64,000 bases of DNA. It comes from a virus. The translations under genes and the position numbers were made by a program. The stretch lies in the IMG/VR virus record IMGVR_UViG_3300044653_000098, positions 1 through 64,000 of that record; one strand, given 5' to 3'. Shown here in pieces: positions 5,724-11,469 of this stretch; the first letter of the stretch is position 1; each line of letters opens with the position of its first letter. The notes under the pieces are model-generated. The model saw only the letters and a program-made list of their open reading frames with translations, was not told the DNA's origin and ran no database searches.

Positions 5724-6992
5724 ATGTCGGACTTCAAGGTGCTGGTCAAGTCCCCCTTCTCCCCGCTCACCGGCTACGGCCAGGACGGCTTCGGCCTGAT
5801 CCGGGCGCTGGATCACTGGGGCTGCGATGTCTACCCCCAGCCGACGTGGGTCGACGTCCCGCTCCCCAAGGATCTGCTGCACCTGTTCAACAAGCACCTG
5901 GAGCCCCCGTTCGACCTCACGATCAACCACTGGTCGCCTGGCGAGCTGGGGATCCGGCCGGAGGCGCGCGAGCTGACCCGGTGCGCTATCGCCTGGACCA
6001 TGTGGGAGTTCGAGAACTGCCCGCTGCCCGGCCCGGTGGCCATGACCGACAAGAGGACGGGCAAGCCCTGCACGACCACCCCTAAGAGCGGGCTGGTGCC
6101 GCTGTGCGCGAACCGCGGCTCGCTGCGCAAGCGGCTGGAGCTGTTCGACCTCGTGCTCGGCTACACCGAGACCACGCTGCATGCGCTCGGCCGCTACATC
6201 CCCAGGACCCGCGGCAAGGAGAAGGTGCCGGTGCCGACCGCGATCCTGCAGGGCGGGTTCGAGGCAGGGGAGTGGAAGTACCACCACGAGCGCGACTGGT
6301 TCGCAGATGAGTTCACCTACATCATGCACGGCGCGCTGAACCGGCGGAAGTGCGCCTGGACGGCGATCCAGGCGTTCAACGACCTCAAGCACGAGCATCC
6401 TGAGTTCGCCCCGGCCCGCCTGGCTCTTCATTCGATGACTCCGGGACTGTTCCCTGAGCTAAACGAAGTGTTCAAGGACAAGAATTTCCACGTCTACATC
6501 GAAGCCTGGGACCACGAGACGGTGCAGGCGTTCTACAACGCCGCGCACGTGCTGCTGGCCCCGAGCCGCGGGGAGGGCAAGAACCTGCCCGCCCTGGAGT
6601 TCTCCACGACCGGCGGCGTGGTGGCGGCGACGGCCTTCGGCGGCCACCTGAACTGGATGGGCGACGCTTACGCCTACCCGCTGAGCTACGCACTCACCCC
6701 GAGCTTCGGGGACCGGCCGGACGCAGCTTACGATGCCAAGGTGCCCGTGGAGGAGCTGAAGCGGGTCATGTGGCACACCTTCACCCACCGGGACGAGGCC
6801 AGGCAGAAGGGCGAGCTGGCGTCCAGGGTGATCCCGTCCATGTGCGACTGGTCCGTGGTGGTGGAGAACCTGTTCCGCACGATCCGTGACAACGTCCCGT
6901 TCAACGGCACGCTGATCTACGACATGGCCATGCGGTGCCGGGTCGACCCGCTGGAGCGCGTTTCACGTGGAACGCAGGACCCGCGGGCATGA
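5724..6992 (+). CDS. GT-B fold glycosyltransferase (GT4-like)
   Basis: A 422-residue enzyme. The N-terminal Rossmann half begins KVLVKSPFSPLTGYGQDG, matching the Gly-rich first loop of GT4 enzymes. The C-terminal half contains LLAPSRGEGKNLPALEF at about 277-293, the acidic E-x(7)-E-type nucleotide-sugar binding motif, followed by ATAFGGHLNWM. Such enzymes move a sugar from an NDP- or lipid-linked donor to a protein, nucleic acid or glycan. Its place inside the virion operon suggests glycosylation of virion proteins, as known for several actinophages. DNA modification or host-wall modification are alternatives. An ATGA overlap links it to the next gene. Confidence 0.8.
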   Translation: MSDFKVLVKSPFSPLTGYGQDGFGLIRALDHWGCDVYPQPTWVDVPLPKDLLHLFNKHLEPPFDLTINHWSPGELGIRPEARELTRCAIAWTMWEFENCPLPGPVAMTDKRTGKPCTTTPKSGLVPLCANRGSLRKRLELFDLVLGYTETTLHALGRYIPRTRGKEKVPVPTAILQGGFEAGEWKYHHERDWFADEFTYIMHGALNRRKCAWTAIQAFNDLKHEHPEFAPARLALHSMTPGLFPELNEVFKDKNFHVYIEAWDHETVQAFYNAAHVLLAPSRGEGKNLPALEFSTTGGVVAATAFGGHLNWMGDAYAYPLSYALTPSFGDRPDAAYDAKVPVEELKRVMWHTFTHRDEARQKGELASRVIPSMCDWSVVVENLFRTIRDNVPFNGTLIYDMAMRCRVDPLERVSRGTQDPRA

Positions 6993-8190: not shown

Positions 8191-8996
8191 TGACCAAGCA
8201 GGTGAGCGGCATCCGCCGCTCCCGCCACAAGACGGACGAGGTCGACGGCAAGCCGGTGACGGTCGAGTACCTGATCGAGGCCGAGCCGCCGCTGGTCCCG
8301 GAGAAGGTGGCTCTGGGCCACACTGTGCGCGTGGGCCAGGGCTCGGTCGACCGCTGGAAGGCCCGCCCGGTCAAGGGCAAGGCCGGGGAGCCGAGGGACA
8401 ACCACACCCTGGCCGTGCACGAGCTGATCGAGGCTTACCGCGTGGCTGGCGGGGAGATTGCCGCGGTGGACGCCCCGGCGGAGAAGCCGGCCAAGGCCCC
8501 CAAGCCCGCCAAGCCGGCCACAGAGACCAAGGCCAGGGGCCGCCGGGCTAAGCCCGCCAAGGACAAGCCGGAGGAACCGGCCCCCGAGGCGAAGCCTGAG
8601 CCTAAGTCCAAGAGCCGCCGCCGGGCCAAGCCCGTTACGGTGGCCACGGACCCTACCCCCGGCGAGCCGACGGAAGCGACGGCTTCTGGAGAGGCCGCCC
8701 CCTCAGCAGGCACCGCTGAGCCGCAGCTGCCGCAGACCGAGATGATCCCGGTCGGGGCCGAGCACGCTGCGGCGCTCGATGTGAACAGCCCTGGGGTGGC
8801 AGCGGATCCCCAGTTCGCTGACGAGGCTGCGCTGGAGGATGCCGTCCTGGCCGACCCGGAAGCGGCCGCTGCCGTGGGCGATCCCGAGGGCTGGGGTGAC
8901 GGTTATCCCGAAGGCAAGCACCGCGCTCCTGCGGCCGCCAACCCGTTCGAGCCCGACCCGGACAGCCCGTTCTCCAACACGGGATTCGTCCGCTGA
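8184..8996 (+). CDS. Unknown protein with long Ala/Lys/Pro disordered region
   Basis: A 270-residue protein. Residues 1-90 look folded (SGIRRSRHKTDEVDGKPVTV, LGHTVRVGQGSVDRWKARPV). About 95-165 is a histone-H1-like low-complexity stretch of repeated KPAK/PAKP units, and the remainder is acidic and Pro rich, ending SNTGFVR. GGAGGC lies 8 bases before ATG 8184, and ATG 8190 is an alternative start. The Lys-rich arm could bind DNA or bridge virion parts. It ends the first transcription unit, 20 bases before a strong terminator. Confidence 0.65.
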   Translation: MVMTKQVSGIRRSRHKTDEVDGKPVTVEYLIEAEPPLVPEKVALGHTVRVGQGSVDRWKARPVKGKAGEPRDNHTLAVHELIEAYRVAGGEIAAVDAPAEKPAKAPKPAKPATETKARGRRAKPAKDKPEEPAPEAKPEPKSKSRRRAKPVTVATDPTPGEPTEATASGEAAPSAGTAEPQLPQTEMIPVGAEHAAALDVNSPGVAADPQFADEAALEDAVLADPEAAAAVGDPEGWGDGYPEGKHRAPAAANPFEPDPDSPFSNTGFVR

Positions 8997-9062: not shown

Positions 9063-9092
9063 TTGACACGTGTCTACCAACTCCGTTACCGT
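9063..9092 (+). promoter_or_regulatory. Operator-embedded promoter, copy 1 (opens accessory operon)
   Basis: TTGACA (9063-9068) is the -35 box and overlaps the palindrome GACACGTGTC (9065-9074). The best -10 is TACCGT at 9087-9092 (18-bp spacer). The first start codon, 9133, has a normal GGAGG site. This is one of 12 exact copies of TTGACACGTGTCTAC and the only one far from the right-hand region. Confidence 0.8.
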
Positions 9093-9132: not shown

Positions 9133-9303
9133 ATGGGCTGTAAGCAGACCGGGGACCATGTATCGGGTGTCCCGGTGGGTGTTCGGGAATCGCCGGAAGA
9201 GCCGCGCTTCGCGATCTGCCTGGGGTGCGGGGGGATCTTGATTGCTTACCCCGGAACCGGGCAGGCCGGAGTGCTGGCGGGAGCAGGAGCCAGCCATGCC
9301 TAA
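9133..9303 (+). CDS. 56-aa CxxC protein, first gene after promoter copy 1
   Basis: The ATG at 9133 is preceded by AGGAGGAACGCCAT. The peptide begins MGCKQTGDHVSG and contains ICLGCGGILIAY, a zinc-ribbon-like C-x2-C, plus an early Cys. It overlaps the next gene (start 9296) by 8 bases, indicating coupled translation. It may be a small regulator or a partner of the Topo mini-A-like protein. Function unknown. Confidence 0.6.
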   Translation: MGCKQTGDHVSGVPVGVRESPEEPRFAICLGCGGILIAYPGTGQAGVLAGAGASHA

Positions 9304-10228
9304 GATCCTCTACGTCGACCGCAACTTCTCGGCCGAGTCCCTGGAGGTCATCGACCGTGCGGACGCGCTGTGCGCGGACTACGCCGCCCAGGGCTACAAC
9401 CTGACGCTGCGGCAGCTGTACTACCAGTTCGTCAGCCGCGCGTGGATCCCCAACAGCCAGCAGTCCTACAAGCGCCTCGGCTCGATCGTGAACGATGCGC
9501 GCTTGGCAGGGCTGATCGACTGGGACCACATCACCGACCGGACCCGGAACCTGGAGAGTCTGGCCGCCTGGGGCAGCCCGAGCGACATCATCGACGCGGT
9601 CGCCGCGCAGTACCGGACGCGCCGCTGGGCTGACCAGCCGAACTACGTTGAGGTCTGGGTGGAGAAGGAAGCCCTGGCCGACGTCGTGTCCCGGCCTGCC
9701 GACAGGTGGCAGGTGCCGTACTTCTCCTGCCGCGGGTACGTCTCGCAGTCCGAGATGTGGGGCGCCGCACAGCGCATCCTGAATGCGGAGAAGCGCGGCA
9801 AGCGCGCCATCATCATTCACCTTGGTGACCACGACCCGTCCGGGATCGACATGACCCGCGACATCCGCGACCGGCTGGAGATCTTCGGTACCGGAGTCCG
9901 GGTCCGGCGCATCGCGCTGACCATGGATCAGGTGCAGCAGTACGACCCGCCGCCGAACCCGGCCAAGCTCACTGATGCGCGGGCTGAGGGCTACATCGCC
10001 ACCTACGGTGACGAGTCCTGGGAGCTGGACGCGCTCGACCCCGCCACGCTGGACACCCTGATCGAGGATGAGATCCTGAGCTGGCTGGACCGGCGGCGCT
10101 GGGATGCGGCCACGGAGCAGATGGAAGAGGAGCGGCGCTCGCTGACCGCGGCCTCGGAGAACTGGCCGGACCTCGTCACCGAGATGCGCAGCCTGGGCTG
10201 GCTGGAAGACGGGGACGGCGGTGAGTGA
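9296..10228 (+). CDS. Topo mini-A-like protein (Spo11/Topo VI A-subunit family, Toprim)
   Basis: A 310-residue protein starting at ATG 9296. It shows the two domains of type IIB topoisomerase A subunits. Residues 37-44 are TLRQLYYQ, the 5Y-CAP winged-helix motif with tandem tyrosines 42/43 as candidates for the DNA-cleaving residue. The Toprim fold has VEKEAL at 122-127 (catalytic Glu) and LGDHDPSGIDM around 176-186 (the D-x-D). Topo VI A is about 370 aa, and short stand-alone forms in mobile elements have been named Topo mini-A. No B-subunit (GHKL ATPase) gene is seen nearby. It may cut DNA for recombination or relax DNA during replication. The longer frame from 9242 lacks a good start. Confidence 0.8.
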   Translation: MPKILYVDRNFSAESLEVIDRADALCADYAAQGYNLTLRQLYYQFVSRAWIPNSQQSYKRLGSIVNDARLAGLIDWDHITDRTRNLESLAAWGSPSDIIDAVAAQYRTRRWADQPNYVEVWVEKEALADVVSRPADRWQVPYFSCRGYVSQSEMWGAAQRILNAEKRGKRAIIIHLGDHDPSGIDMTRDIRDRLEIFGTGVRVRRIALTMDQVQQYDPPPNPAKLTDARAEGYIATYGDESWELDALDPATLDTLIEDEILSWLDRRRWDAATEQMEEERRSLTAASENWPDLVTEMRSLGWLEDGDGGE

Positions 10229-10809: not shown

Positions 10810-10967
10810 GCGCCGACGTCAGCGAAGAGCTGCAGTTCTGCAGCGACCCGGAGTGCAAGGGCCATGCCCCGGCTCAGCACCCGCAGGAGAAAGTGATCAC
10901 CTGGAGGTCGGTGCCGCCGGCCGACTTCCTGGAGAAGAACGCCGGGGTGACCTACCGTGATAACTGA
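10806..10967 (+). CDS. 53-aa Cys/His protein
   Basis: GTG 10806 overlaps the previous stop (GTGA). The peptide contains FCSDPECKGHAPAQH, a compact C-x4-C-x2-H...H metal-binding pattern. It overlaps the NADAR gene start by 11 bases and so is likely co-translated with it. Function unknown. Confidence 0.55.
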   Translation: MSADVSEELQFCSDPECKGHAPAQHPQEKVITWRSVPPADFLEKNAGVTYRDN

Positions 10968-11469
10968 GTTCCAGGGCCAGTACCGGTTCCTGTCCAACTT
11001 CTGGGAGCAGCCGGTCTTCTACCAGCACCCGGACATGCAGAGCGCGATCTGGTGGCCGTCGGCGGAGCACGCCTTCCAGGCGTCCAAGACGCGGGAGCCT
11101 GCTGAGGCTGCATTCGTCGGCCGGGCAAGTTCCCCTCGCCTGGCCAAGCGGCTCGGGCGTGCGGCTACCTGCCGTCCCGACTGGGAGCAGGTGAAAAAGC
11201 GCGTGATGTTCAGCGTGCTCGTCGCCAAGTTTGCCCGCGATCCTGGTGTGACGTCAGGATCCCTGGGTGCCCAGCTCGTGGCTACCGGTCACCAGATCCT
11301 GGTTGAGGGCAACCGGTGGGGCGACACCTACTGGGGCGCGGTTCCCGGCATTCATGCTCCTCATGCGGGCGTCGTCTCTAGTTCCTGGACCGCAGAGGAC
11401 GGGTCGCTGCTGTGGGGGCACAACTACCTAGGGCGCCTGCTCATGGCCGTCCGCGACATCCTGGAGTAA
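10957..11469 (+). CDS. NADAR superfamily (YbiA-like) protein
   Basis: A 170-residue protein with the full NADAR pattern in order: YRFLSNFW (about 9-16), WPSAEHAFQASKT (33-45), SPRLAKRLGR, DWEQVKKRVMFSVLVAKF, LVEGNRWGDTYWG and GHNYLGRLLMAVR. NADAR proteins include YbiA/RibX N-glycosidases and enzymes that remove ADP-ribose from guanine in DNA, reversing guanine-specific DarT toxins. Phage-encoded NADAR proteins can counter DarTG defence. That role is plausible here, in an accessory operon, but is inferred. Pyridine-nucleotide or riboflavin-intermediate turnover is the alternative. GTG start with an 11-base overlap upstream. Confidence 0.85.
   Translation: MITEFQGQYRFLSNFWEQPVFYQHPDMQSAIWWPSAEHAFQASKTREPAEAAFVGRASSPRLAKRLGRAATCRPDWEQVKKRVMFSVLVAKFARDPGVTSGSLGAQLVATGHQILVEGNRWGDTYWGAVPGIHAPHAGVVSSSWTAEDGSLLWGHNYLGRLLMAVRDILE

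Follow-up and report, generated by a model that had tools for sequence, protein, structure and literature searches.

The locus analysed here raises the question of how a phage could use the DNA-cutting half of a type IIB topoisomerase when no gene for the ATPase half is found with it, and which of two adjacent tyrosines would then do the cutting. The window, that is, the whole stretch of 64,000 nucleotides under analysis, covers the first 64 kb of a virus record that is 141,724 bases long. An earlier note on this DNA had read one of its genes, P0001, as the second gene of an operon and as a stand-alone Spo11/Topo VI A-like protein (Topo mini-A) of 310 residues. The frame opens with an ATG at 9296, runs through 310 codons with no stop inside and ends at a stop codon at 10226-10228, so that both the coordinates and the length are borne out. 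A PHROG match, tblastn matches in phage records and relatives in IMG/VR exclude chance; P0001 is a real gene. It does stand second, and its overlaps with the small reading frames on either side (table 1) are as expected for an operon.

Table 1. Features of the mini-A locus (positions within the window)
Feature	Position	Strand	Remarks
PhoD-like phosphatase-domain protein, 661 aa	2667-4652	+	
Glycosyltransferase	5724-6992	+	
Operator/-35 unit TTGACACGTGTCTACC	9063-9078	+	Palindrome GACACGTGTC overlaps -35 hexamer; TTACCGT at about -10 distance
Operon ORF 1, 56 aa	9133-9303	+	CxxC (CLGCG); no family match; 8-nt overlap with mini-A start
Mini-A gene P0001	9296-10228	+	Predicted N-terminal winged-helix/5Y-CAP-like part, Toprim domain, C-terminal helices
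Tyrosine motif LTLRQLYYQ, residues 36-44	9401-9427	+	R39 and Y43 never vary among 132 relatives; Phe replaces Y42 in 8
Toprim Glu motif VEKEAL, residues 122-127	9659-9676	+	E123 invariant; equivalent to Top6A E202
Toprim DxD motif GDHDPSG, residues 177-183	9824-9844	+	D178 and D180 invariant; equivalent to Top6A D254 and D256
SWELDAL motif, residues 241-247	10016-10036	+	E243 invariant; equivalent to Top6A E342, which pairs with R102 (here R39) in the clasp
Operon ORF 3, 73 aa	10221-10442	+	Overlaps mini-A stop; no family match
NADAR-domain protein	10957-11469	+	PF08719, 3e-24; downstream of mini-A, same direction

The surroundings of the operon include further recognizable genes. Shortly upstream a glycosyltransferase (PHROG 2170, 1.9e-22) is encoded, and the 661-aa product that carries a PhoD-like phosphatase domain (4.4e-12) is encoded amid probable structural genes. 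NADAR proteins can strip ADP-ribose off DNA, and a counter-defence role is therefore conceivable for the one encoded downstream.

Database comparisons place the protein in a described family. It matches PHROG 6247, labelled "DNA topoisomerase" (E=1.6e-113), is matched by 76 phage records in tblastn, all at less than 60% identity, and has at least 586 relatives in IMG/VR. By tblastn it shows 46.6% identity over 92% (E=2e-70) to gp49 of Pseudomonas phage NP1, the phage drawn as the example of Mini-A in a review (PMC7614492). Reviews, including this one, describe Mini-A proteins as shortened forms, distantly related to the Topo VI A subunit and occurring in bacterial and archaeal viruses, and the description of Topo mini-A is credited to Takahashi et al. 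2020 (as cited in PMC11302465 and PMC7614492). Since it is homologous to this published example, P0001 is, on sequence homology, a Topo mini-A, and it adds to a family already known, described in 2020 and annotated in PHROGs. No biochemical assay of any mini-A protein was found in the literature searched, which is consistent with the earlier note, where the family counts as predicted enzymes only.

Other searches were less informative. Queried as a single sequence, P0001 matched nothing in Pfam, NCBIfam or PADLOC, a sequence search of the PDB returned nothing beyond one chance hit, and the PDB search with a 132-row mini-A profile returned nothing. P0001 itself has no match over the cut-off to Pfam TP6A_N or TOP6A-Spo11_Toprim; across the family TP6A_N is the commonest Pfam match, weak and present in 22 of the 132 members, with E=0.0013 at best.

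Mini-A is carried by viruses, as both the source record and the 76 phage records attest, and a search of bacterial and archaeal genomes places its relatives in hosts from many phyla. The nearest relatives of P0001 sit in actinobacterial genomes (e.g., Nonomuraea, Actinomadura, and Streptomyces), and the host of this phage is thus likely actinobacterial. In a 165-kb close relative (L014), a frameshift at about 8330-8420 splits the mini-A gene just past the Toprim Glu motif, which is either a sequencing error or a real inactivation. A contig (L137) in a metagenome-assembled genome labelled Nanoarchaeota (G001) also carries mini-A; Topo VI A (PF21180) was not found in that genome, whereas 29 of 29 other genomes in the group have it; the contig may come from a phage and have been misbinned, or the assembly may be incomplete.

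The predicted fold provides additional clues on the relationship with Topo VI A. A first AlphaFold2 model of P0001, built from 12 sequences, had a pLDDT of 79.8, and a model from 132 sequences reached a pLDDT of 94.3 and a pTM of 0.85. In Foldseek comparisons of the predicted structure with the PDB, the sole matches below E=0.001 were three Topo VI A chains, all from one species, M. mazei (probability 1.00, E=5.9e-5); next in rank came unrelated folds of the Rossmann type and Toprim proteins, among them RecR. However, over the whole chain the TM-score of the model against Topo VI A is low, just 0.34, with an rmsd of 17-18 Å. The fold of P0001, winged-helix/5Y-CAP plus Toprim as in Topo VI A, is a predicted one. 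In Topo VI the winged-helix domain pivots relative to the Toprim domain (PMC13040014), and a differing domain orientation in the model could be what lowers the score. Furthermore, a profile-profile alignment of mini-A and Topo VI A in global mode brings all six active-site residues into register, and in local mode hhalign scores 32.8 versus 14-15 for column-shuffled controls, at a low probability of 17%. Comparisons of profile HMMs with sequences were near noise (best E about 1), and so the case for homology to Topo VI A is built on the fold, on the register of the profile-profile alignment and on the pattern of residues. Taken with the homology to NP1 gp49 and the weak TP6A_N matches, these lines agree with the identity first proposed for the protein.

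The active site was compared in an alignment of 132 diverse mini-A relatives, drawn from IMG/VR and from bacterial and archaeal genomes. The motifs TLRQLYYQ, VEKEAL and GDHDPSG, on which the identification had been based, are all present, with key residues invariant throughout. Six residues never vary, R39, Y43, E123, D178, D180, and E243, and these correspond to R102, Y106, E202, D254, D256, and E342 of M. mazei Topo VI A, respectively. In that enzyme Y106 is catalytic, E202, D254, and D256 are the metal-site acids, and an R102-E342 clasp restrains the catalytic tyrosine (PMC13040014). The spacing from arginine to tyrosine is four in both mini-A and Topo VI A, and the pattern R-x-x-[YF]-Y is common to mini-A and 19 archaeal Topo VI A sequences, its second tyrosine being invariant in both. 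The first tyrosine is more permissive: Y42 is Phe in 8 of the 132 relatives, natural variants that read LTLRQLFYQ (L037, L033, L042, L032, L048, L065, L060, and L175), and Y43 is never altered. Yeast Spo11 likewise has Phe at the first position of the tandem, and mutagenesis of mouse SPO11 identified the second tandem tyrosine, Y138, as catalytic (PMC11922746). Because Y42 gives way to Phe, Y43 does not change and the second tyrosine is catalytic in SPO11, Y43 rather than Y42 is expected to be the nucleophile, on conservation and on analogy with the assayed SPO11 and Topo VI.

Given invariant residues like those of SPO11 and no B subunit, the most economical reading, which we consider rather probable, is that mini-A is a homodimeric Tyr43 transesterase, a B-less type IIB cutting core with a role in replication or recombination. 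The gene product would correspond to the part of a type IIB topoisomerase that cuts DNA, with no ATPase (B) subunit. Two molecules would pair on DNA, and Tyr43 of one would attack the backbone, aided by the E123/D178/D180 metal site of the other, to yield a staggered double-strand break with protein left on the 5' ends. Since R39 and E243 would form a Topo VI-like clasp on the tyrosine, cutting may be held in check for as long as the DNA is neither bent nor crossed. Lacking an ATPase gate, the enzyme would not perform ATP-driven strand passage, and the cuts would be resealed or passed to recombination, likely to serve the replication or recombination of phage DNA at an early stage of infection. 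Mouse SPO11 offers a precedent: alone it forms a dimer with hybrid active sites that cuts DNA and stays on the 5' ends, leaving 2-nt overhangs, and it can reseal nicks (PMC11922746). In Topo VI, cutting is normally promoted when ATP drives the B subunits to close, and thus a B-less enzyme may need another activator. In this context, we also put forward, as a tentative and somewhat doubtful extension, that mini-A might be a self-sufficient, clasp-restrained Spo11-like double-strand-break enzyme that starts recombination-dependent phage replication, and so a living analogue of the step from Topo VI to Spo11 with no B-type partner.

In an alternative scenario, mini-A would mainly be an ATP-independent relaxing or unlinking topoisomerase that cuts, swivels or passes DNA and reseals it, with no lasting break. 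The label "DNA topoisomerase" in PHROG and in many records points that way, as do the relaxation of DNA without ATP by Topo VIII of Microscilla marina (PMC7614492) and the ability of SPO11 to reseal nicks and relax plasmids (PMC11922746). Nevertheless, mini-A has no strand-passage module, and relaxation without ATP has been weak in relatives (PMC7614492); we regard this scenario as unlikely.

Whether the transesterase would work unaided can be approached through the genes that travel with it. A search of the whole 141.7-kb record, itself possibly incomplete, found no GHKL ATPase (PF13589, PF02518), in keeping with the earlier observation that no B-subunit gene is seen. The same families were not found in 48 of 49 other virus and phage records with mini-A, six of them full phage records and the others possibly fragments, and the searches were positive in 14 of 14 control genomes. 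In the single positive record (G036, 242.6 kb) two ATPase ORFs, 539 and 666 aa in length, lie at a great distance from mini-A. Additionally, a conserved partner gene was sought across 169 mini-A loci and none was found: the commonest neighbour family occurs at 27 of them, about 4 kb off and mostly on the opposite strand. Among immediate neighbours no PHROG family appears in more than 5 of 115, and the genes there are mixed, comprising integrases, repressors, helicases, DNA polymerases, recombination genes of the RecE/Erf/RecT type and HNH endonucleases. The nearest relatives (68% identity) have mini-A alone in common within 8 kb. In NP1 the gene is near an ATP-dependent DNA ligase and directly upstream of a Sak4-like recombination gene, and in RDJL Phi 2 it comes after a DNA polymerase. 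Mini-A behaves as a free-standing cassette, often in an early, DNA-metabolism region, and the missing GHKL gene and missing conserved neighbour, the two grounds for such a reading, support the prediction that it acts alone.

The same observations weigh against a partner in trans, whereby the B subunit would be replaced by a GHKL protein of the host or by some phage protein that went unrecognised. Topo VI A and yeast Spo11 do work in complexes, many neighbours of mini-A are uncharacterised, and the R39-E243 clasp is retained; in Topo VI cutting is coupled to the B subunits (PMC13040014). However, the hosts span many phyla, 48 of 49 records yielded no GHKL gene, no neighbour is conserved across the 169 loci, and we consider such a partner quite improbable. 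A plain metal-dependent Toprim nuclease like MksG/JetD of Wadjet, with no tyrosine chemistry, is hardly credible: some members do weakly match the Toprim-type DUF2399, DUF7281, and Toprim_2, but TP6A_N is the most frequent Pfam match of the family, MksG has no tyrosine candidate at the 5Y-CAP position (PMC10123090), where mini-A has its invariant Y43, and neither a PADLOC match nor recurrent SMC-type genes beside mini-A were found.

The homodimeric transesterase reading would place the enzyme in early infection, and the promoter region bears on its expression. The unit TTGACACGTGTC at 9063 contains both a -35 hexamer and a perfect palindrome and is one of 15 exact copies genome-wide. Those in the window start at 9063, 46808, 47741, 51510, 52821, 53880, 56235, 57217, 57732, 59520, 60879, and 61730, and three more lie beyond it at record positions 64046, 64712, and 134995; most fall at 46.8-64.7 kb, and the mini-A copy is isolated on the left. 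All 15 are followed by TAC, 13 of them by TACC, and 12 are 59-73 bases upstream of a candidate start codon. At up to two mismatches, the window holds 28 such units against 4.5 expected. The claim that an operator-linked promoter opens the operon is well sustained by these counts, and the units form a putative phage-wide operator set. Their copy number and placement before genes support repressor-controlled expression of the mini-A operon, and mini-A may be expressed early in infection. A scan with the sigma-70 consensus missed the mini-A promoter because its -10 element is not TATAAT-like.

What is new here is the tyrosine assignment, the R39-E243 clasp pair kept by an enzyme that has no B subunit, the broad distribution of the family and the finding of no travelling partner. 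Mini-A is widespread in phages, with hundreds of relatives and hosts in many phyla. Since work in 2025 showed that mouse SPO11 needs no partner to cut DNA, a phage protein this small, with the same invariant residues, could offer a simple model of how A-type enzymes cut. From the family alignment, mutants are predicted to behave as follows: Y43F dead, Y42F active, and E243Q over-active.

Set against known systems, P0001 is closest to the mini-A of NP1, which it resembles in size, motifs and sequence, in the lack of a B subunit and in being phage-borne; it resides in another, large and probably actinobacterial phage and in another operon, and we found no defining difference. With Topo VI A it has in common the predicted layout of tyrosine helix and Toprim domain and the equivalents of all six active-site residues; in contrast, sequence similarity is extremely low, additional C-terminal helices follow ELDAL, and the B subunit with its GHKL ATPase, part of the Topo VI holoenzyme, was not found in this record or in 48 of 49 others with mini-A. 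Topo VIII, a type IIB relative, is found on mobile elements as mini-A is, but has a B part, mostly in the same chain, whereas P0001 has none. MksG/JetD, the Wadjet nuclease, is a relative of Topo VI A, a dimeric nuclease with a Toprim domain, and, unlike mini-A, is partnered by the SMC-like MksBEF. Finally, P0001 differs from Spo11 in being a phage protein with no meiotic partners and a predicted activity; by analogy it may be likened to Spo11, whose catalytic residue is the second tyrosine of the tandem and whose mouse representative is an A-type protein that cuts DNA with no partner.
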